A DNA stretch of 64,000 nt, taken from NCBI GenBank assembly GCA_016194305.1, contig JACQBW010000035.1:1-64000 (forward strand), in the 5' to 3' direction. A program made the translations under genes and the position numbers. The notes under the pieces were generated by a model. It had not been told where the DNA came from. It saw only the letters and a list, made by a program, of their open reading frames with translations, and searched no databases. This DNA comes from Nitrospirota bacterium (lineage in GTDB: Bacteria > Nitrospirota > Nitrospiria > JACQBW01). This document shows, in pieces, positions 2,707 to 63,192 of the stretch; positions within the stretch are counted from its first letter, which is position 1, and each line of letters starts with the position of its first letter.

Positions 2707-2714
2707 CGGTAAAC

Positions 2715-3440: not shown

Positions 3441-3558
3441 TTCTGGAATCGCTCCCATAAGTCAATAAAATCGACGTAATCATACTATGTTTGAAAGTAA
3501 AGTCAACCCGTGTCAGGGACTTCTTAACTTTCTTTTGCGGCTATGATAGAATCCGGTC

Positions 3559-4860: not shown

Positions 4861-4873
4861 GAGAAGTGTCGGA

Positions 4874-7193: not shown

Positions 7194-8576
7194 ATGAAAT
7201 CATCCGTACTAAAAGTCATTAACCCTTTCGATCAGAAAATCGTCTGCGAACTTCCCTGGGAAGAGGAGACGACACTCAATAAAAAAATAGGAGAAGCCCA
7301 CCAGGCCTGGGGTCAATGGCGGCACCTCTCTCTGGATGAGCGGACAAAGCAGGTCAAAATCGGGCTGGAACGATTTCGTTCCCGGTCAGAGGCCATTGCC
7401 AGGGAGATTACCCTTCAGATGGGGAAACCGATCGCACAGTCCAAAAGAGAAATGGAAACGTTTTTTGACCGGGCGGACTATATGATTTCTATCGCAGGGA
7501 AGTCGCTCTCACCGATTGTCCTTCCCGAAAAGAAAGGATTCCATCGCCGCATCGAACATCTTCCTCTGGGGGTCGTTTTTAATATCGCCGCCTGGAATTA
7601 TCCATTGTTAATACCTGTCAATGTAATCGTTCCGGCGCTTCTCGCGGGTAATACCGTTGTCCTGAAACATAGCGCGAGGACGCCGCTATGCGGGAAAGCC
7701 TTCGAAACGGCGTTCGGAGAACTTGAAATACCCGGTCTGGTGACGAATCTGGTGTTGACACACCAGCAGACCCTGAGTGTTATCGAAGATTCGAGGATAC
7801 ATTACGTCGCTTTTACCGGATCGGTGCCGGGTGGAAGTCAAATTTACCGGCATTCGGCCAAACGATTTATCGACGTTGGTTTGGAACTGGGAGGGAAAGA
7901 CCCGGCCTATGTCGCTGAAGACACCGATCTCGACTTTGCAGTTGAAAATATCATCGATGGTGCCTGTTATAACGCGGGACAATCTTGTTGCGCAGTCGAG
8001 CGGGTATATGTCCATCATACACTTTACGAACCTTTTCTCATTAAGGCAAAAAAAGTCCTGGAGGCTTATCAGCTGGGTAACCCGTTGGAACCGGGAACGA
8101 CGATGGGCCCACTGGTCAGCCGATCCGCGCTTGAACTGCTGGAAAATCAGGTCAGGGACGGAATCACCCGGGGAGGAAGATTAATTATGGGAGGGAAGCG
8201 CCTTCCGGATTCGGAGGGAAATTTCTTTTTACCCACTCTGATTGCAGATCTGCCTAATCGTGCTGAATTGATGCAGGAAGAGAGTTTTGGTCCTATTGTC
8301 CCGGTCATGTCCGTTGCGGATGACGAGGAAGCATTGAAGTGCATGTCGGACTCAAGATACGGATTGACGGCGTCTGTCTGGACCAGGGACCGTGAAAGGG
8401 CGGAATATTTTGCCCAAAATCTGGAAACAGGCACCCTATACCAGAACCGCTGCGATTACCTCGACCCGGCTCTCCCCTGGACCGGAATGAAAGACAGCGG
8501 AATTGCCGCTACCCTCTCCGAATTTGGTTTCTATCACCTCACGAAACGAAAAAGCATTCACTTTAGGGAAAGGTAG
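7194..8576 (+). CDS. NAD(P)-dependent aldehyde dehydrogenase
   Basis: A 460-residue aldehyde dehydrogenase of the superfamily that oxidises aldehydes to carboxylates. The expected features are present: the AWNYPLLIPVN cofactor entry, AFTGSVPGG, the general base E231 in LELGGKDP, the nucleophile C265 in NAGQSCC, and the EESFGPIVPVM block. The ATG at 7194 is used because TTGGAGAG immediately upstream is a good ribosome-binding site; starting at that TTG would bury the site inside the gene. It follows the SDR by 36 bp and probably completes the ligase-SDR-aldehyde dehydrogenase cassette, oxidising a (glutamyl-)amino-aldehyde or related aldehyde. The substrate remains inferred. Confidence 0.88.
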   Translation: MKSSVLKVINPFDQKIVCELPWEEETTLNKKIGEAHQAWGQWRHLSLDERTKQVKIGLERFRSRSEAIAREITLQMGKPIAQSKREMETFFDRADYMISIAGKSLSPIVLPEKKGFHRRIEHLPLGVVFNIAAWNYPLLIPVNVIVPALLAGNTVVLKHSARTPLCGKAFETAFGELEIPGLVTNLVLTHQQTLSVIEDSRIHYVAFTGSVPGGSQIYRHSAKRFIDVGLELGGKDPAYVAEDTDLDFAVENIIDGACYNAGQSCCAVERVYVHHTLYEPFLIKAKKVLEAYQLGNPLEPGTTMGPLVSRSALELLENQVRDGITRGGRLIMGGKRLPDSEGNFFLPTLIADLPNRAELMQEESFGPIVPVMSVADDEEALKCMSDSRYGLTASVWTRDRERAEYFAQNLETGTLYQNRCDYLDPALPWTGMKDSGIAATLSEFGFYHLTKRKSIHFRER

Positions 8577-8619
8577 GGATACCCGGGGCTAAAAAGGGAA
8601 ACTCTGGTATAATTATGGG

Positions 8620-9021
8620 ATGGAAACAACGCAAGAACCGATTGAAACTAAAAGAAAATATCCGAGAGTCCGTCAGGAACTCCCGTTCTCTTTTCGCGTC
8701 GTCCATCCTGAATCAGAGGAAAATTGGGTATCTACAAAAACAAATATCCTGGGTGGAGGAGGTATATCGGTCATTTCGCCTGTTTTGCTTCCGGTTGGGG
8801 CCCTTCTTCACGCGAAAATAAACCATTATGCGCGGGTGATCGAATTCACTGCCGAAATTGTCTGGGCGGAGGAAGTGCTTATAGGCGAATCGATCCAGTC
8901 AAGATGCGGCCTTCGTTTTACCCAGATTTCTCAGGATAGTCTCCTGTCTATTCACGATATCATCAATAATTCCCAAAGCAGACCATTCCAGCAAATTCAT
9001 CAAAATCAGATAGACCAGTAG
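8620..9021 (+). CDS. PilZ domain protein (c-di-GMP receptor)
   Basis: A 133-residue single-domain PilZ protein. The c-di-GMP binding arginines appear in KRKYPRVRQE (RxxxR, residues 12-16). The second part of the binding site is the degenerate N-x-x-x-G stretch NILGGGGISV, where the usual serine of (D/N)xSxxG is replaced by leucine. The rest matches the beta-barrel pattern with LPVGALL, TAEIVWAEE and CGLRFTQIS. It probably senses c-di-GMP and controls motility or surface features; a GGDEF-EAL protein at 34.8 kb could set the level. It lies alone after the aldehyde dehydrogenase and converges with ogt. Confidence 0.8.
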   Translation: METTQEPIETKRKYPRVRQELPFSFRVVHPESEENWVSTKTNILGGGGISVISPVLLPVGALLHAKINHYARVIEFTAEIVWAEEVLIGESIQSRCGLRFTQISQDSLLSIHDIINNSQSRPFQQIHQNQIDQ

Positions 9022-9026
9022 CCAAT

Positions 9027-9590
9027 TCAGGATTTTATCGATCTGGATTCCAGAAAAAGAAGTTTTTTCTTCTGATCTTCGCCCCATCGGTACTTTCCAG
9101 GATCGCCCGATTTTCGAATCACGCGATGACAGGGAATGAGATAGGAAATCCGGTTTTGTCCGATCGCGTTGCCCACTGCGCGCGCGGCACGAGGGAATCC
9201 GACTCTCTTTGCGATCTCCTGATAGGAGGTTTGAGATCCATAAGGGATCCGAAGGAGCTCCTTCCAGACTTTGATCTGAAATGGGGTGCCCATCACTGTT
9301 AATTCGATGGGGGAGGGGTCGATATTCTTGCGGGAAGGGAAAATCCTGTTTTTAAATAGCCGCGTTTTTTCAGGTGATTCCAAAAACAGGGATCCGTCCA
9401 GGTCCTGCTTCATTTCCTCGATCGCATAATTTTCATCGCCTTTTCTTATGAAACTAAAAAAAGAAATCTTCCCATCAGAGAGAGCGATCAAACACTGGCC
9501 TAACGGGGTAGGGTGTATTCCATATTCAATGTTTAACGTTGTTTTTTTTCTCACGAATTCGACTCTACTCATGAAATGTGCCTTGATCAT
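9027..9590 (-). CDS. ogt: methylated-DNA--protein-cysteine S-methyltransferase
   Basis: Repairs O6-alkylguanine in DNA by suicidal transfer of the alkyl group to cysteine. The 187-residue protein has an N-terminal RNase-H-like domain (low conservation) and the C-terminal active domain. This carries the DNA-binding TSYQEIAKRVGFPRAARAVGNA stretch in parts, then GQNRISYLIPCHRVI with the acceptor C154, and a final GKYRWG element. The ATG is preceded by GGAGGGG. It is divergent from the TPR gene at 9779 and convergent with the PilZ gene. Its length and the absence of an AraC-type N-terminal domain make it Ogt/MGMT rather than Ada. Confidence 0.92.
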   Translation of the reverse strand: MIKAHFMSRVEFVRKKTTLNIEYGIHPTPLGQCLIALSDGKISFFSFIRKGDENYAIEEMKQDLDGSLFLESPEKTRLFKNRIFPSRKNIDPSPIELTVMGTPFQIKVWKELLRIPYGSQTSYQEIAKRVGFPRAARAVGNAIGQNRISYLIPCHRVIRKSGDPGKYRWGEDQKKKLLFLESRSIKS

Positions 9591-9778
9591 AGCCGCCCCT
9601 CCCCAAAAAGATCACTTGAATATTGGATCGCTCAATCGATTTTAAAATGAAAACAAGGGTTAATCAATCCCTTATTTATTCTTTTATCGCATCGAATGAC
9701 AGAGAACGATCGAATATCCTTGAATTGAAAAATGACTCGTTATTTGATACGCTAGCGGCGGTAACTGGAGCCGCATCA

Positions 9779-10525
9779 ATGTTCAAAAGTATTGCTTCAC
9801 CTGTTGTTTTAGGGTTAGGTATCTGCTTTTTGTTTTCCCAGATCGGATTGGGCGACGAGAGTGACCTTTCACTTCTCTTGCAAAGGATTGATCAGGCTTA
9901 TTTTGAAAGAAATCTGGGTAACCAGTTAGTCGATGGCGAGCAGATGTGCGAGGAAGCGCTTGCCAAAGTGACAGCTAAAGACGATATCTACTGGAGAATG
10001 GCCCGTTTTAAGGCGTGGGAAGGAGCCATTGCGAAAGAAGCGCCCGATAAACTGAAACTTTTTAATAATGCAAAAGGGTGGGCCGAAAAGGGGATTGAAG
10101 CCAATTCTGGAAATGCCGAAACCCATTTCTGGTTAGGAGTTGCTTATGGCAGAATCGGGGAAACTCAGGGAATCTTTAAATCATTTTCTCTGATCGAACC
10201 GATTCGTCATGAAATGGATGAAGTCTTGAAACTCAATCCAAATCATGCCGGAGCGCATCATCTTCTCGGCGTGATGTACAGAAAACTCCCCTGGTTTAAG
10301 GGAGGTTCCAACAAGAAATCGGTCGAGGAGCTTCAAAAATCGATTGATCTGAATAGCGCGAATACGCTTTATCATCTCGATCTGGCCAAGACTTACCTTG
10401 CCATGGACAAAACGAAAGAAGCACGGATAGAGCTTGAGAAAGTTAAGACCATTATGCCTCCGTTTGATCCGGTTGAGGCTGAGATAGACCGAAGGGCTGC
10501 TGAACAGCTCTTGGTAAACAGATGA
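9779..10525 (+). CDS. exported tetratricopeptide-repeat protein
   Basis: A 248-residue protein with an N-terminal hydrophobic segment (residues about 6-22) that looks like a signal peptide. It is followed by a helical body with TPR-like repeats such as AKGWAEKGIEANSGNAETHFWLGVAY in parts, VLKLNPNHAGAHHLLGVMYR and LNSANTLYHLDLAKTYLAM. The layout resembles the RMD1/PTP3-like TPR family found in secreted bacterial proteins. The ATG at 9779 was preferred because a signal peptide follows directly and CTGGAG precedes it; the frame stays open 52 codons upstream to 9623 but that part looks non-coding. It is 13 bp before a cupin gene. No enzymatic function is expected; it probably mediates protein contacts in the periplasm. 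Confidence 0.65.
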   Translation: MFKSIASPVVLGLGICFLFSQIGLGDESDLSLLLQRIDQAYFERNLGNQLVDGEQMCEEALAKVTAKDDIYWRMARFKAWEGAIAKEAPDKLKLFNNAKGWAEKGIEANSGNAETHFWLGVAYGRIGETQGIFKSFSLIEPIRHEMDEVLKLNPNHAGAHHLLGVMYRKLPWFKGGSNKKSVEELQKSIDLNSANTLYHLDLAKTYLAMDKTKEARIELEKVKTIMPPFDPVEAEIDRRAAEQLLVNR

Positions 10526-10538
10526 AAGGAGAATGAAA

Positions 10539-10967
10539 ATGACGAAACGGGATGGAGTCGCAATTTATCCTAACGGGGTGACGCTTGCGAAATGGCCGAG
10601 AAAAGAAGAACCGACTGCGGAGAATGTGGCACAGGAAATGAAAAAATACGGATACACGGTTTACGACCAGCAGACGGTGGCCCCCTGGTTTGAACGAAGC
10701 CGGCATGGACATGATGAGGCGGAGATTCGAGGAGCCATTTCGGGGGTCATTACCTTTCACTTTGATGAGTTTCCCGTTACCCTCGAAGCGGGAGATATTT
10801 TAATGATTCCGGGCGGGATTCCTCATGAGGTCATCAGCCACAACGGGAGCCCTTTCTCGGCATACAAAGGATCCAAAAGTGGTGAACGGAAGGTCACAGA
10901 GTATGCAAATGGAGTAGGAAGTGTCGAAGATCTCGCAGCTCGTCGCGCCTCTGCAAAAATGAAATGA
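10539..10967 (+). CDS. small cupin-domain protein
   Basis: A 142-residue single-domain cupin. The first cupin motif supplies metal-ligand candidates H56, H58 and E62 in RHGHDEAE, and the second supplies H96 in PGGIPHEV. The barrel strands between are recognisable (VTLEAGDILMIPGG). Cupins of this size may be dioxygenases, isomerases or binding proteins, and nothing here fixes the substrate. The ATG at 10539 has GGAG eight bases away; an ATG at 10533 would sit on top of that site. Its last codons overlap the start of the HAD phosphatase gene by four bases (ATGA), so the two are translationally coupled. Confidence 0.72.
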   Translation: MTKRDGVAIYPNGVTLAKWPRKEEPTAENVAQEMKKYGYTVYDQQTVAPWFERSRHGHDEAEIRGAISGVITFHFDEFPVTLEAGDILMIPGGIPHEVISHNGSPFSAYKGSKSGERKVTEYANGVGSVEDLAARRASAKMK

Positions 10968-11647
10968 ATCTTATTGCGATTGATCTCGATGGAACGCTTG
11001 AAGACAGCCGTCGGGATATGATTTCTTCCGTACATCGGGTGCGGGCCGGTTTTTCACTTTCCAGACGGTCAGATGACCGGATTGCTCCCTGGGTCAATCA
11101 GGGAATGGAACGACTTTACCTGAACTGTTTCGACGACTATCTCGAAAAGGGAATTTATCCCGAACGAATGAATATCGTTCGGAACGCGTATGAACTTGAT
11201 TATCTCGGCCAAGTTGCAACTGAAACCCGCCTGTATCCAGGCATCTCCGAAGCACTTTCAGGACTGTCGCTTGTCGGCCGTCTGGTTGTCGTCACAAACA
11301 AACCTGAAAAGATCTCGAAGCGATTACTGAAGGAGTTGAAAATAGACCATTGGATCTCCGGTCTTGTTGGAGGGGATACGATTGGAAAAATAAAACCTGA
11401 TCCAGCTCTTTTACAAGAGGCGGCCCGCCTGGCGGGTTATTCATCCGACTCAGGCATTTCCTTTATGATTGGAGATACGTCCGGGGATATTCAGATGGGG
11501 CGTGCCTTTGGCGCCGTCACGATCTGGTGCGCCTGGGGTTATTCAAAAAATCCGGGAGTCGCACCTCACGAAACTGCCACAGATCCGGAACAGCTCAAAG
11601 AGCTTGTGCAAAAGCGAACGCCAAAGCAAATTGAAGCCATTATTTAG
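10964..11647 (+). CDS. HAD-family phosphatase, phosphoglycolate phosphatase-like
   Basis: A 227-residue HAD hydrolase. Motif I is [10 protein letters not shown] with the nucleophile D7 and acid/base D9. Motif II is [10 protein letters not shown], the lysine motif is [10 protein letters not shown], and motif IV is [16 protein letters not shown]. The helical cap between motifs I and II is of the type seen in Gph/phosphoglycolate phosphatase, and the final AWGYSKN matches that group. It probably removes phosphate from a small metabolite; phosphoglycolate is the first guess. It is coupled to the upstream cupin (ATGA overlap) and its 3' end overlaps the convergent msrB by eight bases. Confidence 0.78.
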
Positions 11648-12047
11648 AATCGTTTCCAGTTGGAATAAATTTTAATGCCGCCGAGTTAATGCAGTACCTC
11701 AATCCTGTCGGTTCCGGTCCGTCCTTGAAAACGTGTCCCTGATGTCCGCCGCATCTTCGGCAGTGGACTTCCGATCGGGGATAAATTAATTTCCAGTCCG
11801 TTCTTGTCTCAATGGCTGATTCTTCCAGAGGTTGCCAGAAACTGGGCCAGCCGGTTCCGCTATCAAATTTGGTCTCGGATGAGAAAAGAGGCAGGTCGCA
11901 TCCGGCGCAGTGATAGTTTCCCTTTGCCTTGTTTTCATGAAAGCTGTTTTTAAAGGGAGGTTCCGTTCCCTCCTTCCTTAAGACCCGATACTGTTCCGGC
12001 GTGAGCATGGCTTTCCACTCTTCATCTGATTTCTGATAGTCACTCAT
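11640..12047 (-). CDS. msrB: peptide-methionine (R)-S-oxide reductase
   Basis: Reduces the R-epimer of methionine sulfoxide in oxidised proteins. The 135-residue protein is complete. Structural zinc cysteines are C47 and C50 (CAGC) and C96 and C99 ([12 protein letters not shown]), and the catalytic cysteine is C119 in [10 protein letters not shown]. Other family blocks are [10 protein letters not shown] and DGPEPTG. No resolving Cys is obvious in the usual C63-like place. A GGAGA ribosome-binding site precedes the ATG. There is no signal peptide, so it acts in the cytoplasm. It overlaps the convergent phosphatase gene by eight bases. Confidence 0.95.
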
Positions 12048-12211
12048 TTTCCTGATCTCCCGAACCGAATTAGAAGGTGACTGTTTTTATGAAATACTCT
12101 CTGGAAGTTTACCTAACTTCAAGTGCCAAGAGCAAGAGCCGAGCTCAAAGGCACCATCGCGAAGATTGAATGGTCAACTCAGGGAATCGAGGCGATCGCA
12201 GGTGGATAAGC

Positions 12212-13582
12212 CTATAAAGTCTGTGAGTAGAGGGCATTTCCGGATGGATGAGGTTCTAGATAGGCATCGAACGGCATGGCGATATTGCGAAGAAAAAGAT
12301 TTCCGGTTTCTGTCACCCTAATGTTTTCAGCAGAGACCTCAACCAAACCGTCTTCCTCCATCTTGCTTAATTCGGCGAGGGCATCGGCAAAGTAATCGTT
12401 GAAATCAATTTTCCATTTTTGCGAAAGCATCGGGAGGTCTATCTCCGAGCCGCACATAATCCGCATGATGACCTCGCGTCGGATCTTATCATCCAGGGAG
12501 ATGTTCATTCCGCGTTCGGTCGCCAGTCTGCCCTGCTGGATTCTTTTGCTGTACTCGTCAATCTCTTTGACATTTTGCGCGTAAATCTCCTCCGTCTGGC
12601 TGATACCGGAAACCCCGAAACCATATAGGTCGCTCTCTCCATGTGTCGAGTAACCTTGAAAATTCCTCCAGAGCGTTTGGTTCTCCCTGGCCTTCACCAG
12701 ATCGTCGTTGGGTTTCGAATAGTGATCCATTCCAATATTGACATAACCGGCTGAATTCAGCTTTTCAATGACCAGAAGGCGCAGCGCCAGACGAGTCTGA
12801 AAATCAGGGAGGTCTTTCACACGTATCAGCTTTTGGTGTTTCAGCAGGTTCGGAAGGTGGGCGTAACTGAAAATGGCCAGACGGTCGGGCGACCAGGAGA
12901 TAATTTTATCCAGGGTCCGGGAAAAGGTTTCTACACGCTGGTGCGGCAATCCGAGCATCAAATCGAAATTAATACTTTTAAACCCGGCATTCCGCATCCA
13001 GCCGTACACTTCGTAAACAATATTTTCAGGCTGGACGCGATTGACGCTTGTTTGAACCTGATTGTCAAGATCCTGAACGCCCAGGCTCATTCTGTTAAAG
13101 CCGCTCTCTTTTAACGCGGCAATATGATCCCGGGTTAATTCCCTGGGATCGACTTCACAGGCAATTTCCGCACCGGGAGCGATCAGGAACTCATTTTGTA
13201 TGGATGAGAACAGATTTCGGATATCGGATGGCTGAAGAAAAGTGGGCGTGCCGCCTCCCCAATGGATCTGTTGCACTCTTTTTTTGGAAGGGGCCAATCC
13301 CGCAATAAGGGAAATTTCCTTTCTTAATAACGCCACGTATTCTGCCGCGTGACTGTAGCGCTTTGTTGCGAACATGTGACAGCCGCAGTAATAGCATAAG
13401 GAATCGCAAAACGGAATATGGAAATAGAGTGAAAGGTCCCGGTCGCTGTTCTGGTTTCGGCAGAGCTCTTCCCTCCATTCTTTTTCACCGAATAGATTTG
13501 AAAAATGGGGTGCGGTCGGATAGGAGGTATAGCGCGGTCCGGGTCTGCTATATTTCTTGAGTAAAAGATTTGTCAAAGTCAT
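12212..13582 (-). CDS. hemN: oxygen-independent coproporphyrinogen III oxidase
   Basis: Radical SAM enzyme of haem synthesis that converts coproporphyrinogen III to protoporphyrinogen IX without oxygen. The 456-residue length matches true HemN rather than the shorter HemW. The cluster motif C59-x3-C63-x2-C66 followed by C68 lies in FHIPFCDSLCYYCGCHM, and RPGPRYTSYPTAPHF at the N terminus is the HemN-specific block. GGGTPTFL, SLGVQDLD, NFDLMLGLPHQ and the C-terminal HemN domain are present. No oxygen-dependent hemF is in the window. It stands alone on the minus strand and no FNR-like site was seen in the 80 bp upstream. Confidence 0.93.
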   Translation of the reverse strand: MTLTNLLLKKYSRPGPRYTSYPTAPHFSNLFGEKEWREELCRNQNSDRDLSLYFHIPFCDSLCYYCGCHMFATKRYSHAAEYVALLRKEISLIAGLAPSKKRVQQIHWGGGTPTFLQPSDIRNLFSSIQNEFLIAPGAEIACEVDPRELTRDHIAALKESGFNRMSLGVQDLDNQVQTSVNRVQPENIVYEVYGWMRNAGFKSINFDLMLGLPHQRVETFSRTLDKIISWSPDRLAIFSYAHLPNLLKHQKLIRVKDLPDFQTRLALRLLVIEKLNSAGYVNIGMDHYSKPNDDLVKARENQTLWRNFQGYSTHGESDLYGFGVSGISQTEEIYAQNVKEIDEYSKRIQQGRLATERGMNISLDDKIRREVIMRIMCGSEIDLPMLSQKWKIDFNDYFADALAELSKMEEDGLVEVSAENIRVTETGNLFLRNIAMPFDAYLEPHPSGNALYSQTL

Positions 13583-51935: not shown

Positions 51936-51969
51936 GTTCAACTTCTATTCGCTCAATTTCGTGCATTTG

Positions 51970-52042
51970 GGCGGCGTACCCAAGTGGCTAAGGGAGCAGT
52001 CTGCAAAACTGCGATTCATCGGTTCGATTCCGATCGCCGCCT
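51970..52042 (+). tRNA. tRNA-Cys (GCA)
   Basis: A complete cloverleaf of 73 bases. The acceptor stem is GGCGGCG with CGCCGCC, the anticodon stem GCAGT with ACTGC and loop CTGCAAA gives anticodon GCA (Cys), and the T arm is ATCGG-TTCGATT-CCGAT. CCA is not encoded. It has its own upstream promoter and stands at the edge of the AT-rich gap before the multicopper oxidase operon. Confidence 0.95.
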
Positions 52043-52095
52043 TCCCCAAAATCTCCTTTACGAACCCCTTTTCCACACTCCTGGCAAGCTTCATC

Positions 52096-52121
52096 TGATA
52101 CAAATTCGTGATACAAATTCG
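52096..52121. repeat. 13 bp tandem duplication
   Basis: TGATACAAATTCG occurs twice in direct succession, shortly downstream of the tRNA-Cys gene. It is probably a slippage product; an attachment-site role is not supported. Confidence 0.6.
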
Positions 52122-52612
52122 TTCAATACCTGTCACAAAATTCATTTTTGTCTTTTCCATAGGACATACAGTGAATTTCTTCCCATAAATACGACAACAT
52201 CTTTTCGACTCTCACCTTATTCGGAACGACGATATTGTAGGAAACAGCCGATTATCACCTTCATCTGGCCTATGTTGTCCTATAAAGTCATTAAGTATCT
52301 GATTATGGTAATATTTTACAGTGGAATATAAGTATAAAATAAAGTAACTAAAATAACTTTTAATATCCTAAAAAGATAATATTTTATATTTTTAGGTAAA
52401 TATATTTTCATTAAAAATATTTAAATATGTTTTAAAATTAAATAAATATTAATAATATGAAAATTAAAAATATTTATTCATTATTTATTATTAATATATT
52501 TCATTATTATTATTTTAATTACAATTAGTTACAAATACGACATCAGATAAATTCGATATCTAAGTCTAATTATTTAGACAATTACATAATAATTTGGCAT
52601 TTTGATTGAATT
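52122..52612. other. gene-free, extremely AT-rich regulatory region
   Basis: No credible ORF exists between the tRNA and the first multicopper oxidase gene. From about 52300 to 52610 the sequence is almost entirely A and T with many A- and T-tracts and short palindromes, in sharp contrast to its surroundings. Such DNA is intrinsically bent, easily melted and a usual target of H-NS-like proteins. It directly precedes a sigma-54 promoter, where activator binding sites and bending would be expected. Confidence 0.7.
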
Positions 52613-52630
52613 TTGGCAGTTTTATTGCAT
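52613..52630 (+). promoter_or_regulatory. sigma-54 (-24/-12) promoter of the multicopper oxidase operon
   Basis: TTGGCAGTTTTATTGCAT has the GG (52615-52616) and GC (52627-52628) dinucleotides exactly ten bases apart, matching TGGCA-N-TTGC. The expected transcript start is near 52640, 75 bases before the ATG at 52716. A degenerate second copy, TTGGCAT...TTGA, lies 19 bp upstream at 52594-52609. A sigma-54 promoter needs an AAA+ enhancer-binding activator, which is not in the window. Confidence 0.7.
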
Positions 52631-52715
52631 TTAAGCCTAGGAAAGAAATTATGAGGTCATTAGTTTTAGCGTCGTGAGGTTTAAATTCTTGAAATTGAAA
52701 CAAGGAGAAACGGAT

Positions 52716-53966
52716 ATGCGGAATAGATTGAAAAACATTTTCCTGGCCCTGTTAGGGATATTATCGATTTTTATCGTTTATAATATACCTGTTGCGCAAG
52801 CGATTGTGCAATGCCCTGCCAATGATCCTTTGGCGGTCTGTATTCGGTTGGGTGCGACCGATGGTTATACCAAAGGGGCCGATGGGGAAGATCTCTATAT
52901 TTTCGGTTTTGTCGATCTGACCGGCGTTCCCGAAAATGAAATCGTGAATTATAAGGGCCAGGCCCATCTTCCAGGTCCGATGATTGAAGTTTGGGAAGGC
53001 CAACATCTCTATATTACAGAGACAAACCTTGGCTTCAGTAACCGAATCGATCTGTTTGATCCGCATACGCTTCATTTTCACGGTTTCCCTCATGCGATGG
53101 CGATTTTCGACGGGGTTCCGGATAATTCGATTGCCGTGAACGACGGGCAGGATTTTACCTATTTTTATCAACTCAACGACCCGGGGACCTATCCCTATCA
53201 TTGTCATCAGGAACCGGTTGAGCATATCCAGATGGGCATGGTCGCGTTGATCAATGTTCATCCGTTACAGGACGTTAGCCTCTACCCGGATCAGACGACC
53301 GCACTCGCCGCGCTCAAAGCAAAAGCAGGAATTGGCGACTTCAAATTCGCATCAAACGGATATGCCTATAACGACGGCGGAACGACTCCCGGTACCTCCA
53401 CGACCTATTTTGATCGAGCCTTTAACTTCCTCATCGATGATATCGATGCCCGGAAACACCACAATGATGAAACAATTCAGGAAAGCAAGAATGAATGGCA
53501 CGACTACCATCCCAATCAATATATTTTAAACGGCAGGGTCTATCCGGACACACTCCTCGCTCCGAATGATTCTACGATGACAAGCGGCCACGATTATATC
53601 GGAAGTACCTCCGCGCTTGTCACGGCAAATCAGGGAGAAAAAGTTCTTCTGCGGATGGTCAATCTTGGTTATAAAACCCATACCTTGACGATTCCCGGAA
53701 TCACAATGCGTGTTATCGGTGAAGACGCGAAAATTCTTCGGGGTCCGACCGGCCTTGATCTTTCCTATTCAAGAACCGGGATCGAACTTGCCGGAGGCAA
53801 AACAGCTGATATACTTCTGGATACGGCTGGGGTTGCAAAGGGGACCTATTTCATGTACGCGAGAGAACTTAACCAGGAAGGCTATTTAAGTCTGACCGAT
53901 ATTTTGACGAACGCCCCGCAGAGTGAAAACAACGGCGGGATGATGACTCAGATTATCATTAATTAA
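52716..53966 (+). CDS. two-domain multicopper oxidase-like protein A (domain 1 copper ligands only)
   Basis: A 416-residue exported protein (signal peptide about 1-29, ending AQA) with two cupredoxin domains. Domain 1 has the full set HTLHFHG (H117, H120, H122) and YHCHQEPVEHIQMGM (H162, C163, H164, H170, M175). That gives type 1 copper ligands H117, C163, H170 and M175, plus four trinuclear-site His. In domain 2 the matching motifs are THTLTIPG and YFMYARELNQ, with the trinuclear His gone. Alone it cannot form a trinuclear cluster in the usual interdomain way. The ATG at 52716 has AAGGAGA upstream and begins a signal peptide; a GTG at 52674 is not used. It is first of a three-gene operon behind a sigma-54 promoter. 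It could also be read as an atypical type C two-domain oxidase or a nitrite-reductase relative. Confidence 0.8.
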   Translation: MRNRLKNIFLALLGILSIFIVYNIPVAQAIVQCPANDPLAVCIRLGATDGYTKGADGEDLYIFGFVDLTGVPENEIVNYKGQAHLPGPMIEVWEGQHLYITETNLGFSNRIDLFDPHTLHFHGFPHAMAIFDGVPDNSIAVNDGQDFTYFYQLNDPGTYPYHCHQEPVEHIQMGMVALINVHPLQDVSLYPDQTTALAALKAKAGIGDFKFASNGYAYNDGGTTPGTSTTYFDRAFNFLIDDIDARKHHNDETIQESKNEWHDYHPNQYILNGRVYPDTLLAPNDSTMTSGHDYIGSTSALVTANQGEKVLLRMVNLGYKTHTLTIPGITMRVIGEDAKILRGPTGLDLSYSRTGIELAGGKTADILLDTAGVAKGTYFMYARELNQEGYLSLTDILTNAPQSENNGGMMTQIIIN

Positions 53967-53987
53967 ATTAAGGTGATGGAGAGACCC

Positions 53988-55307
53988 ATGGATTTTTCGA
54001 AGACAAAAAGAATCGTACTTGCCGCTTTCTTAACCTGCTTGATCGTAGGGGGGGCGCAGTCCCTTTCGATGGCTCAGGACATTCATCTCAAGGCTAAAAA
54101 GGGGTTCATTACCGAGCCGGATGGAAACGGGGTTCCCATGTGGGGATTTACCCAGGATGGGAATTTTCGCTACCCGGGTCCGACCATCGAGGTCAACCAA
54201 AATGAAGTCGTCAATGTCTATCTGCAGAACATTGATGTTCCTGAACCTGTTTCGATTGTCTTTTTTGGACAGGAAGGCGTTTCCAATCAGGATCCTGTCT
54301 ATGTGACCAACGACGGTTTAACCACAACGTTACCTGGCGATAAGCGGACGTTAAGGTCGATGGCGGCGGAAGCGCTCCCGGGTGGAGCTGAAATCCTCTA
54401 TACTTTTACGGCAAGCAAAGCGGGTACCTACTACTATCAGAGCGGGACTCATGCGGACGAACAGATTGATATGGGCCTTTTCGGCGGAATCATTGTCCGA
54501 CCCACAGGGTACAATGCCGCCACGAACAAGATTGCCTATGCCAATTGTTCAAATTGCGGATACGACCGGGAATTTCTCTTTCTTTTGAGTGCCGTCGATT
54601 CCATCCAGCATAACCGGGTTGAAGCAGGCCTTCCATACGAGAGCACCTCTTATATGCCCTCATATTGGTTTATCAACGGGCGTTCATTTCCCGATACACT
54701 TGAAGAGACCTATCCGGAATCAGCCCAATTTCAAAGTCAACCGATGAATGCGCTGGTAAAAAGCTATCCCGGAGAAAAACTATTGTTCAGAACAATTACG
54801 CTGGATCGTGACATTCACCCCTTTCATCATCACGGCGTCCATGCGCTGGTTCTGGCAAAGAACGGCAAACTCCTGCAGAGCGCTTCTTCGGCACCCTTGG
54901 CCGACCTCGCGGTCCTTCAATTTTCACAATCTGTTCCGGTCGGTGAAACCGCCGATTCGATCTGGTCCTGGGATGCCAATGATCCGAGTGCCCCTCAAAT
55001 GGGTGGAAGTCATGAAACGATGCTGGGATATGATATCTATGGTAACGATCAAAATAACCTCATTCCGGTTGCCATTCCGCAAGACCTTGCTTTAGTGCAT
55101 GGTCCATTTTACAGCGGCAGCCCGTATCTTGGGAAAACCGGTGACCTTCCAGTCGCAGAAACGGCGGTGAGTCTGAACCATGGCGGAGAGCATTATATGA
55201 TTTTTCATAGCCACCATGAAATAGAACTAACCAATTTCGATGAAACTCCGGGTGGGATGATGACCCAGATTATGATCTGCGCTCCCGGTGCTCAAGCTTG
55301 TCAATAA
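53988..55307 (+). CDS. two-domain multicopper oxidase-like protein B (domain 2 copper ligands only)
   Basis: A 439-residue exported paralogue of the preceding protein (signal peptide about 1-29, ending MAQ). In domain 1 the copper motifs are replaced without gaps: EPVSIVFFG where protein A has DPHTLHFHG, and YQSGTHADEQIDMGL where A has YHCHQEPVEHIQMGM. Domain 2 keeps HPFHHHG (H277, H280, H282) and FHSHHE (H407, H409). Ser408 stands where a type 1 Cys would be, so it has a trinuclear half-site but no type 1 copper. A long insertion (about 290-400) separates the two domain 2 motifs. Like A it ends in GGMMTQI. ATG 53988 has GGAGAG upstream; it lies 21 bp after gene A. It probably pairs with protein A. 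Confidence 0.8.
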   Translation: MDFSKTKRIVLAAFLTCLIVGGAQSLSMAQDIHLKAKKGFITEPDGNGVPMWGFTQDGNFRYPGPTIEVNQNEVVNVYLQNIDVPEPVSIVFFGQEGVSNQDPVYVTNDGLTTTLPGDKRTLRSMAAEALPGGAEILYTFTASKAGTYYYQSGTHADEQIDMGLFGGIIVRPTGYNAATNKIAYANCSNCGYDREFLFLLSAVDSIQHNRVEAGLPYESTSYMPSYWFINGRSFPDTLEETYPESAQFQSQPMNALVKSYPGEKLLFRTITLDRDIHPFHHHGVHALVLAKNGKLLQSASSAPLADLAVLQFSQSVPVGETADSIWSWDANDPSAPQMGGSHETMLGYDIYGNDQNNLIPVAIPQDLALVHGPFYSGSPYLGKTGDLPVAETAVSLNHGGEHYMIFHSHHEIELTNFDETPGGMMTQIMICAPGAQACQ

Positions 55308-55349: not shown

Positions 55350-58300
55350 ATGAAAACGGAATTAGGAATTAACCGAAAAAAAGGGATGGAAACCATGGCT
55401 AAGAGAAGTGGATTGAGACGATCAATGATGTTCTGCGGGCTTCTGTTATTAAGCCTCGTGCTTCTGAATTCTGGGAAAGGATGGGCGGCGGCCTACAATC
55501 TTAAGGCCACGACCGGAACGGCAACCATGCCGGACGGTGCCGTGATCCCGATCTGGGGATATGCGGCTTGTACGGATGAGACCTTTACATCGTGCGGGCC
55601 GGCCACTCTACCTGGACCTCAGTTAGAGGTGACAGATGGATCATTGACGATCAACCTGTCCAATGACCTGCCAGAGCCGGTTTCAATCATGATTCCGGGT
55701 CAAACCATTCAGCCGACTCCGACAGGAAAATCCTTTACGGTTGAAGCGGCATCTGGCGGGGGAACAGCCTCCTATACCTTTAGTAATGTCCGTCCCGGAA
55801 CCCATCTTTACGAAAGCGGATCGAATCATGCGAAACAGGTTCAAATGGGACTTTACGGCGCATTGATTGTCCGCCCGGCGGGATTTTCTTCTTCGAATTT
55901 AATTGATTTCGATTCAAACAGCACTTTCAATCAGGAAAGAGTCCTTCTTCTTAGTGAAATCGACCCGGACTGGCATGCTGCGGTTTCCGGTGGTCAGCAG
56001 TATAATGGAATCTATTTTAATCCCAAATATTGGTTAATGAATGGCAAGGCCTATCCTGAAACCCAGGATCTCATTACCAAAAGCGGCAACAAAATGTTAC
56101 TCCGTTATCTCAATGCCGGTGCTCAGGATCATGTCATCGTCATACAGGGTATTTCTCAGCATGAAGTGGCTAATGACGGATATCCTGTAAATTACCCCCA
56201 GGATACTTACACGGCGTTGGTGAATCCAGGGGAGACCCGGGATCTGATGATCACCCCTTCTGCTATGGGGACGTTCTCATTGTTTGACCGAAGACTCGAT
56301 ATTACCAATAAAGATAAATTTCCGGGTGGAATGATCTCAATGCTCCGGGTCATTGATTCGACCCTGACAGGTCTTCAGATTTTATCGACGGCACCTGGCA
56401 TGGTCACTGTGGAAAATCTCTATTCCTATGATACGGTGGCGATTGACGCCGACCATCTTGATGCAACATTGATTTATACCATTGTGCCGGGACCCAGTAC
56501 AGTCTCTTCTCTGACGCCCGCGACAGTGAGCGTGGACCCGTCGACAGGAAGAATAACCTGGCCGACCATCCTTGCGGATAATTCTGCGACAAACGGATCT
56601 TATCCGATGACGCTTTCGGTTTCAGATAGTTATGGTGGTCCGGTTAGCCAGACCTTTAATGTTTATGTGAACAGTAATCCCGCATTTGGTGGCGCGCTCG
56701 GTAGCGTTTCTATTGCGGCAGGGTCTACCTATTCGGGCAATGCGTCGGCAACAGACGCAGACGCAAGCGATGTGGTCTCCTATGCGCTCTCTTCCACCAT
56801 GGGCATGTCAGGATTGAGCATTAATCCATCGACAGGAGCATTAACGTGGAATACCAGCACCTCTTCAGCCGGGCTTTACAATTTTAATATTGTGGCGACC
56901 GATGGAAAAGGGGGTATCGCTTCTCAGGTCGTCGCCGCAACCATAACCTCCTCATCTCCTCCGGCGGTTGTGCAGAGCGGGATCTGCGACAACAGAACCG
57001 ATTGCCAGAATGTGACTTTATCGGCGGTTGAGTTTGGGAATACAGCCACGTCCCTGACCACTTTTCAATTTGTCATCAATGTCGATAACACGTCTAAAGT
57101 CGATCCCGATACCGGCGCGTGCGATCCTTGTCCTTCAACCCATCTTTGGGAAAGTAATTCTCCTGTCGCCGCAGTGGGAATGGTCACTGCTGCAACTTTT
57201 GGAGTCAGCAATGTGGTTCAGCTTCCTCCGGGAAACTATTTTGTCACAATCCATGCCGGTGAAGGTGATCCGAGCAGCCCTTATTTCAGACAACAGGTTC
57301 GAAATGGTGGAACTTATAAATTGGATGGTACTCGTTTTAATGTCAGCGGATCGCCCGTTCCGGTACAGCTACAACTTCATAAGAATCCTCTCCCATTAGG
57401 TCAGATCACCGTTCAGGTCTTCTGGGACAATCGGGCACTCAACGCCGAATGGGACGTTGCGACGGAAGGGGTTCCTTTCCGGACACTCGACAATTTGGGA
57501 AATCCAATTCCAGATCATTTTAAAGTTCTTGTTCATGACTCTCTTGGTCAGGTGACGACCGATGCTTACGCGAATCCGCTCTGTACCGAATATACAAAGG
57601 ATGCCAACGGCCAATATATCTATGATCCCGCTACCGGCGCCCCGATTGCCATCAACTCAGATCCAAATAACGGGGGGGCGAAAGGGGGAGCGGTCTGTAT
57701 GACCGACGATAACGGATTTCTCCGTATTCCCAATATTGCTCCCGGTCTTTATGGTGTTGTGGCGTTTCCACCGGAAGATTCCGATTGGGTTCAGACCACG
57801 ACCATTGAAGGAACCAAATCGATTGACGCCTGGGTTCGTGAAGCCGACAACGGAATTCTTCCCGAAGGTTTGTCTGCCCAATCTTATGCAATTCTGCAGG
57901 GATTTGTCCGCCCCTGTAAATTCAGCACGGTGATTCCATCGGGTGCCGACCCCTGCCCGACCTCCCATAATCCGGGAACCGGAATAATTCATGGTCAGGT
58001 GAAAGCCGTTGCACCGTCAAGACCTCCTTACCTCTATGCCGATGGCCTTGGTAAACCTGTGGTTCATCCCTGGGTCGCCCTGTCCAATACAGGTGGAAAC
58101 CTCGAACAGGTTGCTTTGATACAGGGGGATGATCAAGGAAACTTCTCAATCGACCATGTTCCGGCAGGTGCGTATAATGTGGTCATCTGGGACGATCCGA
58201 AAGATTTTATTCTGGCGATCTTTGCGGTCACGATCGCAGACGGCCAAAATCTTGAACTTTTTGATCCTTTGATTTCGACTGACGGCAACAGGGGCATAGG

Positions 58301-61300
58301 CCTCTTTGACTGGTGGGGCCGATTTGTCGGAAATGTCTTCTACGACGCGAATGAAAACGGAATTAAAGACGAAGGAGAGAAAGGTCTTGTTGGCGAGTAT
58401 GTGGAACTCCGTAAGCGGGATGGGAGTCTGATTCAGTCGACCACCACCGATGCCAACGGATATTATAACTTTAGAGAACATTTCCCCTGGTATGGCTGGG
58501 ATATAGCCGGAATTGGTTACTCACGCTTTGGAGACACCGGGCTCACTTATTGGGCGGGGCTAGAGCAGGCAAAGATGGGGCAACCGATCACAGAAGGACC
58601 GGTCACCATCAAAGGGCCCCAGCTTGTGATGGGGGTTCTCCCGATTGCCGGTGAAACCAATCAGATCGATTGGGGGAAAAAGCCTTATCCATTGAATGAT
58701 CCCGACACCATCACTCCATTTACAGGTGGAATTTCGGGGGTCGTCTGGTATGCGTCAACCCGCAATGAGAATGATATTGCTTATGCCGCGGCAGACAACT
58801 GGGAAACGGGTATTCCTGATTTATGGTTAAACTTATACGAACGGCTCGTCGATCCCAAAACGGGCAAAACCGTCATGGATCCTGTCACAGGTGCTGCGGT
58901 AAAAGGGAGGCTTCTTGGAAGGGCAATTACCGACCATTTTAATCGGCCCGAACAGATTCCAACCCATTGCCCGATCATCGATTTCACCACGGGCACGCCG
59001 GGGTTTGATGAGAATTGCACCGAAACCTATATTACCTGGGCTCAGGTCAAGCCGGGTGTCTATGATGGCGCCTATCAATTCTTCTTCGACCAGAGTAATC
59101 CGGCCGATCGTGCAAACCTTTTAAATTGCGACGACGTGGGAGTGGACGTCACCGGACTTGATCCAAATAAATGCCGCCCTCTTCGGGCAGGAACTTATCT
59201 GGTTGAACTTGAGGTCCCGAATAATTATTCACCGTTGACTGAGAATGACCGAAACGTGATCGATCAAGGGGATGTTTTCAAACCGACCCCTCTTAGAGCG
59301 CCCCCCTCTTGCGTCGGCCCTCTTTATTCGGTCATTTATCCGGATGATACGAATAGTAATTATGTCAATGGAACGAAGGCAAACCTCTGCACTTTGAAAG
59401 AAGTGACCGTGGATCCCAATGCGAATGCGGCAAACGATTTCCATCTTTTTACCGACGTTCAGATTCCTGGGCATATGGTCGGATTTGTCAACGACAATAA
59501 CAATTTCGCCGCCAAAACAACCTCTCCCTGGTTTGGCGATAAAGAGGGTATTCCCTTTCTTCCGATTTCAATCCGCGATTGGGCGGGAAAAGAGATCGAC
59601 CGGGTTTATACCGATCAGAACGGGATGTTTGACCTGCTGGTCCCTTCGACCGCACGTCCTAATGCGCCGAAACCGACCGGGTATTCTGAAAATGTCGTTC
59701 TGGTGACCGCAAATGATCCGGGTACGGCCCAAAATCCTGACCCTCATTTTAACCCGAATTATGACTCACTTCTGGTTCAGTTTGAAGTGATGCCGGGACG
59801 ACCAGTCTTCCCCGATATGGCGTTGACACCGGTAAACGGACTTCTGGCCCAGATGAAAGTCGACTGCGGACCGGATGCCACAACGCCTCAGGTATCTTAT
59901 GTCGATGACCCGATCAAGCCTAGAGGACAAACGCTGACCGTAACCGGGACAGGTTTTGGATCCACCGCTGGAAGACTGTTAATCGATTCCACTGTGATTA
60001 CGGCCACTAGCTGGAGTCCAACCGTCATTACCTGGACCATTCCAAGCACATTTGCAACGGGTGCTCACCAGTTGACGGTTCAGGGAAGTAATTTGAAAGT
60101 CAGCCCGGCCGGAATAACCGTTCATATCACCGGTACCGGCTATAACCCTCACATTGTTGACGTCAGTCCAGGTGGCACAAGCCTCCATCCGATCCAGGAC
60201 GCAATCGATGCGGCAGGAACCGTTTCCGGAAGCGTGATTCGAATTCACCCCGGCACCTATCGGGAGAACCCGATTGTTTATAAAAATATCTCCCTTCAGG
60301 GTTATGGCACCGCGGGAGTCAATGCGACCATTATCGACGGCGGATATCTGACCATGGGAACCTCTCTGGCGCTTCAGAACGACTGGACCAATAAAATGAC
60401 CGCCGTGATTGCCAGCACCGATGTGACGGTGGTGGATCAACAGCCGATTTCAGAGACGATGAGCACCATTACCGTTTTTGGACGTGACGGATCAACCCGT
60501 CGTATTCGAATTGACGGATTAAAAATTCAAGGTGCGCGTGGCGGAAGCGGTGTCCATGTGAATGCTTACGCCAGCAATACGATTGTCAGCAACAATCTGA
60601 TTCAAAATAATATGGGATCCCTCCTCACTTCTGGCGGGGGAGTCTCTCTCGGATTTCCGAACTTCGGTAGTAACGTCATCAGCAATCCCCGCATCCACCA
60701 TAACAAGATTATCAGTAACGGTGGAACGCAGGACGGGAGCGGTGTTGCGGTCTACGATGGTGTCGGTCCTTACCAGGTCGACCATAATCTGATCTGCGAC
60801 AACGGATCGATGGTCAATGGAGGAGGTATTGCGCACTTCGGGACCAATCCTTCGACGTCTGCCGGATCGATCGACCACAACGACATTCTCTTCAACTGGG
60901 ACAATCTCGCAGGGGCTGGAATTGCGTTGGAAGGTCCGCCCAATGCGAATGTGACCCTGCCGTCTGTCGGAACCGGTCCGGTCTTGATTGATACCAACCG
61001 GATCTACGGGAACTTTGCCACACAGGATGGCGGTGGTATATCCGTTCGATATGTCAATAACAGCAGTATTCGAATTCAGAATAATATGATTACCAATAAC
61101 ATGACCTCAGACGCGGCGGGAGCCTTGTCGGTGCGTGACGCGGCCAATCTCGTGGTGATCAACAACACGATTGCCAATAACAATGCCACGGCATCCACCA
61201 ATATCCTGATCCCCGGCAAGCAGGCGGGTGGTATCACGATCTATCCCAATACCCTGCCGTTCCAGAATAATGTGATCAGGGCCAATTCGCCCACGGTGAG

Positions 61301-62564
61301 CGATATCCATCTTTACAACAATATCATGTGGGGTAATGATGCCTATCAGTGGAATGTGGCGGGGAGAGTGCTGGCAGATGTCGGACCAATCGATCTTGAC
61401 GTCTACGGGGTTCCCGGTGCGACATTAACCCATGTCGAGGACAACCTCTTTACAGCAAGTGCTGTGACCGCAACCATCTCTAATACGAGCAACCAGTTTG
61501 GGGCGAATCCGGCATTTGTTTCGTCCGTTGCGAATGCGGTGACCGGTCAATATGTCCCTGCGCAAGGGGATGTGATCAGTCAGGTGATTGTCCATTACCT
61601 TCCGCTTACGGTCTCAGGGGATTATCATGTTCAGACGACTTCGCCGGCACTTGAATATGGCGGCAGAACGTTTGAAGCGGGAAGAATCTCCGCGCCGACC
61701 ACTGATTTTGACGGTCAGGCCCGTCCGATCGATAACTGCATTGATTCCGGCGCCGACGAGACCCAGGCTGTAACGGTATGCGTCGTACATCCAGATCTTG
61801 TTGTGAGTGCCTTATCAGCGGTGATTGGAATCGTTCAGCCAGGCGGAACATTGCTGGTGACCAATTCCGTGACGAATCAGGGCAATGGAAGTGCGGGGGC
61901 TTCGACACTGGCCTTTCATCTCTCGAAGAACAGCATTTATGGGGATGTGGACGATGTGACTTCTCCGACGACAAGGGCGATTGCCGCTCTGTTAGCCGGA
62001 GCGTCAAATAACGCCTTGGCCACAGCGGTGACCATTCCAGCCAATACACCCCTTGGAACCTATTACCTCTGTGCGATGGCAGATAGTACCCTGGCGGTTG
62101 CCGAATCGGACGAGGGTAACAACTCATTCTGCACAACCTCTACGATAGAGGTGGTCCAGGCCGATCTGATCGTGAGTACGATGGGCACCCTCTCGAAGAC
62201 ATCAATCTCCCGTGCGGGTAGCAGTACTGTCCGGACCTTTACGGTGCAAAATGCCGTCCAGAATGCTGGAAATCTGCTGGCCGGACCAAACGTTCTAGGG
62301 TTCGTCTTGTCGACTAACCCGAACTATACCGGGACCGGAAGCAGTGTTGCCCTCTCGGGAACCCGGACGATTTTCTTGCTTGGCGCAGGGGCCTCGAGTC
62401 CTGGGACCGGAACGACGACCTCCCCGAATCTTACGGTGGGGACGACCACGCCAACCGGTACTTACTATGTCTGCGGAAAGGCGGATATTAACAATAACGT
62501 GAGTGAATCGAATGAAGGCAATAACTGGAAATGCACAGCGTCTACGTTAACGATCACGCCATAA
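55350..62564 (+). CDS. giant multidomain surface or secreted protein with a copper-less double-cupredoxin N terminus
   Basis: A 2404-residue exported protein. Rough domain order: signal peptide to about 47; two cupredoxin domains 48-335 homologous to proteins A and B but without copper ligands (EPVSIMIPG, YESGSNHAKQVQMGL, DHVIVIQG, FSLFDRRLDI); cadherin/He_PIG-like Ig domains 340-550; SdrD/CnaB-like domains, the best at about 989-1060 (NVFYDANENGIKDEGEKGLV) and another around 1374-1435; an IPT/TIG domain 1512-1596; a right-handed beta-helix about 1601-2141; and two CARDB domains 2147-2404 ending in SDEGNNSFC and SNEGNNWKC. No LPxTG, sorting signal or autotransporter barrel is seen. It resembles a surface scaffold or adhesin. 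An ATG at 55395 is a plausible alternative start with a compact signal peptide. A terminator follows. Confidence 0.82.
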   Translation: MKTELGINRKKGMETMAKRSGLRRSMMFCGLLLLSLVLLNSGKGWAAAYNLKATTGTATMPDGAVIPIWGYAACTDETFTSCGPATLPGPQLEVTDGSLTINLSNDLPEPVSIMIPGQTIQPTPTGKSFTVEAASGGGTASYTFSNVRPGTHLYESGSNHAKQVQMGLYGALIVRPAGFSSSNLIDFDSNSTFNQERVLLLSEIDPDWHAAVSGGQQYNGIYFNPKYWLMNGKAYPETQDLITKSGNKMLLRYLNAGAQDHVIVIQGISQHEVANDGYPVNYPQDTYTALVNPGETRDLMITPSAMGTFSLFDRRLDITNKDKFPGGMISMLRVIDSTLTGLQILSTAPGMVTVENLYSYDTVAIDADHLDATLIYTIVPGPSTVSSLTPATVSVDPSTGRITWPTILADNSATNGSYPMTLSVSDSYGGPVSQTFNVYVNSNPAFGGALGSVSIAAGSTYSGNASATDADASDVVSYALSSTMGMSGLSINPSTGALTWNTSTSSAGLYNFNIVATDGKGGIASQVVAATITSSSPPAVVQSGICDNRTDCQNVTLSAVEFGNTATSLTTFQFVINVDNTSKVDPDTGACDPCPSTHLWESNSPVAAVGMVTAATFGVSNVVQLPPGNYFVTIHAGEGDPSSPYFRQQVRNGGTYKLDGTRFNVSGSPVPVQLQLHKNPLPLGQITVQVFWDNRALNAEWDVATEGVPFRTLDNLGNPIPDHFKVLVHDSLGQVTTDAYANPLCTEYTKDANGQYIYDPATGAPIAINSDPNNGGAKGGAVCMTDDNGFLRIPNIAPGLYGVVAFPPEDSDWVQTTTIEGTKSIDAWVREADNGILPEGLSAQSYAILQGFVRPCKFSTVIPSGADPCPTSHNPGTGIIHGQVKAVAPSRPPYLYADGLGKPVVHPWVALSNTGGNLEQVALIQGDDQGNFSIDHVPAGAYNVVIWDDPKDFILAIFAVTIADGQNLELFDPLISTDGNRGIGLFDWWGRFVGNVFYDANENGIKDEGEKGLVGEYVELRKRDGSLIQSTTTDANGYYNFREHFPWYGWDIAGIGYSRFGDTGLTYWAGLEQAKMGQPITEGPVTIKGPQLVMGVLPIAGETNQIDWGKKPYPLNDPDTITPFTGGISGVVWYASTRNENDIAYAAADNWETGIPDLWLNLYERLVDPKTGKTVMDPVTGAAVKGRLLGRAITDHFNRPEQIPTHCPIIDFTTGTPGFDENCTETYITWAQVKPGVYDGAYQFFFDQSNPADRANLLNCDDVGVDVTGLDPNKCRPLRAGTYLVELEVPNNYSPLTENDRNVIDQGDVFKPTPLRAPPSCVGPLYSVIYPDDTNSNYVNGTKANLCTLKEVTVDPNANAANDFHLFTDVQIPGHMVGFVNDNNNFAAKTTSPWFGDKEGIPFLPISIRDWAGKEIDRVYTDQNGMFDLLVPSTARPNAPKPTGYSENVVLVTANDPGTAQNPDPHFNPNYDSLLVQFEVMPGRPVFPDMALTPVNGLLAQMKVDCGPDATTPQVSYVDDPIKPRGQTLTVTGTGFGSTAGRLLIDSTVITATSWSPTVITWTIPSTFATGAHQLTVQGSNLKVSPAGITVHITGTGYNPHIVDVSPGGTSLHPIQDAIDAAGTVSGSVIRIHPGTYRENPIVYKNISLQGYGTAGVNATIIDGGYLTMGTSLALQNDWTNKMTAVIASTDVTVVDQQPISETMSTITVFGRDGSTRRIRIDGLKIQGARGGSGVHVNAYASNTIVSNNLIQNNMGSLLTSGGGVSLGFPNFGSNVISNPRIHHNKIISNGGTQDGSGVAVYDGVGPYQVDHNLICDNGSMVNGGGIAHFGTNPSTSAGSIDHNDILFNWDNLAGAGIALEGPPNANVTLPSVGTGPVLIDTNRIYGNFATQDGGGISVRYVNNSSIRIQNNMITNNMTSDAAGALSVRDAANLVVINNTIANNNATASTNILIPGKQAGGITIYPNTLPFQNNVIRANSPTVSDIHLYNNIMWGNDAYQWNVAGRVLADVGPIDLDVYGVPGATLTHVEDNLFTASAVTATISNTSNQFGANPAFVSSVANAVTGQYVPAQGDVISQVIVHYLPLTVSGDYHVQTTSPALEYGGRTFEAGRISAPTTDFDGQARPIDNCIDSGADETQAVTVCVVHPDLVVSALSAVIGIVQPGGTLLVTNSVTNQGNGSAGASTLAFHLSKNSIYGDVDDVTSPTTRAIAALLAGASNNALATAVTIPANTPLGTYYLCAMADSTLAVAESDEGNNSFCTTSTIEVVQADLIVSTMGTLSKTSISRAGSSTVRTFTVQNAVQNAGNLLAGPNVLGFVLSTNPNYTGTGSSVALSGTRTIFLLGAGASSPGTGTTTSPNLTVGTTTPTGTYYVCGKADINNNVSESNEGNNWKCTASTLTITP

Positions 62565-62636: not shown

Positions 62637-62673
62637 GTTGACAACCTGGAAAGAAAAAGTACACTTAAAGACA

Positions 62674-63192
62674 ATGAAAAGAAATATTTTAGGATTCTTA
62701 CTATACGGTATCTTCGTCATTTCCTGCTCTTCCTTGCAAGCGCCGCATGATTTGGTAGAAGATCAACCTGCCGGTCACATCGGTCATCAGTCTCATTCTG
62801 ACGCCCGCACTCCGGTAAAGCAGGGTGACTTGTCCGTCGTTACGGGCCAGGAAGATTTGATAAAAACTTATGGCATAAAAGTTGAAACGCTTCGGTTGAC
62901 TTCGGCCGGCATGATGCTCGACCTTCGATACCGGGTGGTCAATCCAAAACTGGCGACGGCGGTGACTCAAACCTCTTCGCCGGTTGAAATCAAAGTCATA
63001 GACCAGGCGACCGGCCATGCACTGGGCGTCGACAAAACCAACGCAGGATGGTATCGATCGAGATCAAAGAGAATTCAACCCAACCGGATTTTCTTTGTCA
63101 TTCTCGACAATACGCATCAGGCGGTCAAGCAGGGTTCCGTTGTGGCCATTACTTTTGGTTCGATTAAAGTTCAGGGATGGAGGGTGGAATGA
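62674..63192 (+). CDS. lipoprotein of unknown function
   Basis: A 172-residue lipoprotein. The signal peptide ends in the lipobox VISC (Cys20). A His-rich segment follows (HIGHQSHSDAR), then a beta-rich domain (GIKVETLRLTSAGMMLDLRY, RVVNPKL, EIKVIDQATGHALGV, VAITFGSIKVQGWRVE). The family was not recognised. The ATG at 62674 starts a clean signal peptide; the frame is open upstream to 62638, inside the region after the terminator. It overlaps the next lipoprotein gene by four bases (ATGA). The His-rich stretch next to a copper-enzyme operon may mean metal binding, which is inference. Confidence 0.7.
   Translation: MKRNILGFLLYGIFVISCSSLQAPHDLVEDQPAGHIGHQSHSDARTPVKQGDLSVVTGQEDLIKTYGIKVETLRLTSAGMMLDLRYRVVNPKLATAVTQTSSPVEIKVIDQATGHALGVDKTNAGWYRSRSKRIQPNRIFFVILDNTHQAVKQGSVVAITFGSIKVQGWRVE

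Follow-up and report, generated by a model that had tools for sequence, protein, structure and literature searches.

Complementary multicopper oxidase ligand sets on neighboring genes suggest a heteromeric enzyme completed by a ligand-free third paralogue

Can two neighboring genes, neither of which encodes a complete set of multicopper oxidase ligands, together provide one active site? The question is raised by genes A and B (Table 1) in the window analyzed here, a 64,000-nucleotide stretch of a Nitrospirota contig. Each gene product consists of two cupredoxin domains. Domain 1 of A contains a full set of type 1 copper ligands (His117, Cys163, His170 and Met175) as well as half of a trinuclear site (His120, His122, His162 and His164), and domain 2 of A is ligand-free. 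In B, domain 1 is ligand-free, and the ligands of domain 2 are limited to the second half of this site (His285, His287, His412 and His414), with Ser413 occupying the place of the type 1 cysteine. Residues of A are counted from the ATG at 52716 and those of B from the GTG at 53973; when the ATG at 53988 is taken as the start, the four histidines of B become residues 280, 282, 407 and 409. The eight trinuclear-site histidines, arranged in four HxH-type motifs, are complete only across A and B, with four on each chain. A first-pass annotation had interpreted this pattern as a heteromeric oxidase, split between A and B, whose trinuclear site lies at their interface. The hydrophobic N terminus of A in the window is read as a Sec signal, and B likewise begins with a signal-like segment, as judged by eye.

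Table 1. Features of the oxidase locus, in window coordinates
Feature	Position	Strand	Description
A	52716..53966	+	Two-domain multicopper oxidase subunit; Pfam Cu-oxidase_3/2
Ligand codons, A domain 1	53064..53240	+	From sequence and conservation
Type 1 copper codons of A	H117 53064, C163 53202, H170 53223, M175 53238		
Trinuclear-cluster histidine codons of A	H120 53073, H122 53079, H162 53199, H164 53205		
B	53973..55307	+	Two-domain paralogue of A; Pfam multicopper oxidase domains
Ligand codons, B domain 2	54825..55214	+	H285 54825, H287 54831, H412 55206, H414 55212
C	55350..56375	+	N-terminal two-domain unit of giant gene; Pfam Cu-oxidase_3
Linker, C to D	56382..56954	+	Ig-like (He_PIG); Pfam
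D	56988..61769	+	SdrD_B/carboxypeptidase-regulatory-like/TIG/right-handed beta-helix scaffold, fused here to C
CARDB domains	61791..62564	+	C-terminal in giant C–D protein; Pfam
E	62638..63192	+	Small lipoprotein-like protein

Directly 3' of B on the + strand lies a giant gene (55350–62564; 2404 aa), which begins with a third two-domain unit, C. This unit has a signal-like N terminus and no copper ligand in either domain, and is homologous to stand-alone C genes of other loci. Beyond the multicopper oxidase unit, Pfam recognizes He_PIG, SdrD_B, fn3_3, TIG and CARDB domains. Residues ~547–2140 of the giant protein match protein D of Bacillota loci over its full length at ~33–35% identity, showing that C and D are fused in the window; at most loci D is a separate gene of ~1500–2100 aa beside A, B and C. 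A small gene, E, comes after C or C–D in the window and in nine related loci. A search for a Pfam match to E gave none, and E is possibly an accessory of the set.

To compare ligand positions, we aligned 43 A (42 of them complete), 42 B and 41 C sequences from several phyla with one another. Domain 1 of every complete A sequence shows H, H, H, H, C, H, H and M at the ligand columns, where V, V, P, E/Q/H, S, G, Q and L predominate in B and C. All four histidines of B domain 2 are kept in 42 of 42 B sequences, and are replaced mainly by Q/T, L/P, Y and R in A and by V/R/T, Q/G, Y and R in C. From all 41 C sequences the ligand set is absent as a set, in either domain. The ligands that the first-pass annotation had named for A and B are all present and conserved. 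Because the pattern spans three separately clustering groups of paralogues, it amounts to more than chance.

Two other sources of the split were considered and rejected: an artefact or chance, given the 42/42 conservation, and a frameshift in the window, since A and B each possess two domains and fall into separate groups of the tree.

The nearest solved structures are 3g5w and 2zwn, both type C two-domain multicopper oxidases, and both domains of A and of B align to 3g5w. In HMMER alignments, the HTxHxHG and HCHxExxEHxxMGM motifs of A fall on domain 1 in both structures, and the HPLHPHG and HSH motifs of B coincide with the HxHG (HTH in 3g5w) and HDH motifs of domain 2, which places the histidines of B at positions homologous to trinuclear ligands, as had been supposed. 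Type 1 ligands occur in domain 1 of A only, as in type C enzymes, where the type 1 copper resides in the N-terminal domain (PMC13151041). Two-domain oxidases are trimers in which the trinuclear cluster is coordinated from two protomers (PMC13151041). The trio thus resembles the type C enzymes in its two cupredoxin domains, in the presence of the type 1 copper site in domain 1 and in its homologous motifs, and its trinuclear site is likewise predicted to lie between domain 1 and domain 2 of the next protomer. The type C enzymes, however, are products of one gene and form homotrimers with three sites, whereas the trio has the two halves on separate genes, a blank third subunit and one predicted site. 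The trio is predicted to work like a type C two-domain oxidase, yet no chain of it fits the family definition. When window A was compared with the NCBIfam oxidase families (CopA-type, NirK and laccase), it reached none of their curated cut-offs, the best score being 51.6 bits against a cut-off of 478.95.

To which organisms does the set belong, and do its members travel together? We searched a collection of bacterial and archaeal genomes and obtained 26 loci, mostly from Bacillota (Moorella, Thermincola, Desulfallas, Desulfoscipio, Tepidibacillus and other MAGs), with two labelled actinobacteria. Wherever the contig is long enough, the Bacillota loci show the order A-B-C on one strand, with D (~1500 aa or more) just upstream of A. 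Among 296 sampled Nitrospirota genomes, 18 gave a high-scoring match to A, and B, searched for independently, was found in the identical 18, which bears out the co-occurrence of A and B that the split site would entail. All 18 carriers contain C and 16 contain D, the two exceptions lying at contig ends; the C–D fusion is seen in the window and four relatives, and D is separate in the other loci of the phylum. The only other genome sampled from the window's family has neither A nor B, which makes the distribution patchy. The Bacillota sample gave A in about 19 of 349 genomes, one of these without B, and the actinobacterial sample gave A in 2 of 347. In genome G020 (L055/L056), A-B lies ~8 kb from C-D on one contig and is not adjacent to it. 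A conserved haem-protein partner was sought at the loci and none was found. In one actinobacterial genome (G297; L030, L076) the set is present twice, and its D proteins are very large.

A homologue of A without B was encountered only once, in G346, where A directly adjoins C with no room for B between them; B and D were sought elsewhere in this genome (one assembly) and not found. Here A still has His117, His162, Cys163, His170 and Met175, and hence all type 1 ligands, and three of its four trinuclear histidines are gone (H120Y, H122E and H164Y). Loss of B and loss of the half-site in A go together, as a shared site predicts; the coupled loss is a single case, and the absence of B rests on one assembly.

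Phylogenetic analysis placed A, B and C in three groups with support values of 100, 99 and 63, respectively. The groups mirror each other internally, each being divided between Nitrospirota and Bacillota, and these matching divisions suggest that the triplication most likely predates the split between the two phyla. A, B and C have most likely been passed on together, by inheritance or transfer. Outside the three groups, the closest relatives found are Bacillota proteins of ~510–560 aa encoded by single genes (L070, L071, L073, L077 and L078), mostly from genomes without the trio. These share the domain 1 pattern of A (HHHHCHHM) and, unlike any chain of the trio, combine it with the four domain 2 histidines on one polypeptide; they show the form of the unsplit counterpart. 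In a further single-gene relative (L072, 3816–5237) the trinuclear ligands are degenerate.

For structure prediction we made use of the fact that A, B and C of the window share one reading frame, so that reading through the stops yields a tethered chain. A first modelling alignment, in which B and C were collapsed onto A, was discarded; different sets of rows followed until the rows of all three proteins were in the right register, the choice being made on register alone and before inspection of any model. With the register-checked alignment, AlphaFold reached a pTM of 0.39 for the window trio, which is not usable, and Foldseek on this model was uninformative. The genes of a Peptococcaceae locus (L019) also lie in one frame, and the tethered trio from this locus, modelled with 22 alignment rows, gave a pTM of 0.73 and a pLDDT of 75. 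Foldseek matched the latter model to several three-domain laccases (target TM 0.56–0.79 over ~740–800 columns), and only poorly (0.23) to the sequential six-domain ceruloplasmin. A good laccase fit together with a poor ceruloplasmin fit leads us to expect packing of one subunit's domain 1 against domain 2 of the product of the following gene (A1–B2 or B1–C2), an arrangement that would provide the geometry needed for a trinuclear site, with the caveat that the tether may favor neighbors and that an alignment of few, mostly unpaired rows may skew the model.

We propose that A, B and C are the subunits of a single two-domain multicopper oxidase that is obligately heteromeric and most likely forms a 1:1:1 ring with one active interface, and assign this reading a probability of roughly three in four. 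The fuller account, in which an obligate, asymmetric A:B:C ring with exactly one trinuclear cluster among three pseudo-equivalent interfaces arose by triplication and complementary ligand loss and is held on D via C, also appears rather likely to us. The ring would be built like the type C homotrimers already known. For its copper loading and catalysis we infer that domain 1 of A, with the type 1 copper and four histidines, would face domain 2 of B, with the other four, to form the trinuclear cluster, and that the remaining two interfaces would be blank. Electrons from the putative substrate would enter at the type 1 copper in A and cross the His162-Cys163-His164 bridge to the cluster common to A and B, which would reduce O2 to water. 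C would close the ring and link it to D, the giant beta-helix protein with which C is fused in the window; D may in turn anchor the ring to the surface of the cell or, in spore-forming bacteria, to the spore.

The stoichiometry is the point at which this proposal departs from the first-pass annotation, which had missed the third subunit C and had envisaged an A–B ring (A3B3) with half of its interfaces active. The scaffold D is likewise part of the system. Its split A–B site, as the annotation had it, is well supported, and the two-component ring is probably wrong, given that the ligand-free paralogue C accompanies A and B: a 1:1:1 A-B-C trimer fits this better than an A–B ring. A ring of A and B alone (e.g. 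A3B3), with C as a separate structural protein, would account for the restriction of ligands to A and B and for C being a minor part of the giant protein in the window. It is nonetheless unlikely, for C is homologous over both domains and present with A and B at the loci read, two-domain oxidases are trimeric, so that three paralogues fill one ring, and the tethered A-B-C model, of moderate confidence, points the same way. Counting against the A-B-C ring are the retention of C with A in G346 in spite of the missing B, the separation of A-B from C-D in G020, the tree support of only 63 for the C group, and the low pTM of the tethered window proteins.

The shared site may also be questioned altogether. 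A could act, alone or as A3, as a type 1 (cupredoxin-like) electron carrier, and the histidines of B could bind another metal or be relics; many hosts are anaerobic, so that an O2-reducing oxidase is unexpected there, and A of G346 keeps its type 1 site without the trinuclear half-site. Against this stand the four trinuclear histidines of A, present in 42/42 complete sequences and, for three of the four, lost in the one genome where B is missing, and the location of the B histidines in homologous trinuclear columns, and we consider such a carrier improbable. A further alternative is that A, B and C are largely structural proteins of a coat or matrix, with conserved histidines that serve copper storage rather than catalysis; in its favor, the proteins without a leader in endospore formers and the giant protein D are reminiscent of coat or adhesin material. 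Storage would hardly explain why type 1 and trinuclear ligands, including the cysteine and the axial methionine, are invariant and confined to one domain, and we regard this as the least credible of the explanations.

The proposed A-B-C ring may be compared with other interfacial copper enzymes. Ceruloplasmin and Bacillus MnxG are rings of six cupredoxin domains with the trinuclear site at one interface, as we propose for the trio; in ceruloplasmin, this site lies between domains 1 and 6, and there are further type 1 sites. Six-domain oxidases were found by Foldseek, and differ from the trio in being one polypeptide instead of separate genes, and apparently also in the order of units around the ring, which seems to be opposite. 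If the proposal is correct, the separate genes of the trio reach what ceruloplasmin reaches by fusion. The copper nitrite reductase NirK is a trimer of two-domain subunits that bind copper where they meet, but it is a homotrimer with a type 2 site and no trinuclear cluster, and its similarity to the trio is only weak.

A literature search covering mainly open-licence papers revealed no split, heteromeric or heterotrimeric multicopper oxidase of such a kind, and this division of labor appears to be undescribed for the enzyme family. The trio would clearly exemplify, in nature, a multicopper site at an interface whose two halves come from different genes, next to a third paralogue retained without catalytic residues, and would offer an oxidase that could be switched by omitting one subunit. 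It makes testable how symmetric homomers turn into asymmetric heteromers. The set occurs in at least three groups (Nitrospirota, Bacillota and actinobacteria), and its carriers include spore-forming anaerobes (Moorella, Thermincola and Desulfotomaculum-like bacteria), in which an oxygen-using copper enzyme calls for explanation.

At most Bacillota loci, well-placed ribosome sites indicate that translation of A, B, C and D starts with the mature domain, with no signal peptide; the Nitrospirota proteins have hydrophobic, signal-like N termini, and at two actinobacterial loci A begins with a twin-arginine-like leader (both by eye). A role of the set at the spore surface is plausible. SpoIVA is present in 292 of 349 sampled genomes, and its occurrence in carriers is therefore not distinctive. 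Sigma-K-like promoters upstream of D number 5, versus 1.4 expected from a simple shuffle, which is not decisive.

Some features of the surroundings were also recorded. In the window, a tRNA-Cys (51969–52045) and a very AT-rich stretch (52100–52699; 18–29% GC) immediately precede A. At L031, a subtilase with a C-terminal dockerin type I domain (2433–4903 of its own contig) is followed by a lipoprotein-like protein that appears cohesin-like by eye, and subtilases are found near the set in L054 and L057 as well. L031 also contains, as judged by eye only, bacterial-proteasome-like genes (a subunit and Pup ligase/deamidase-type proteins) at 7963–12967.
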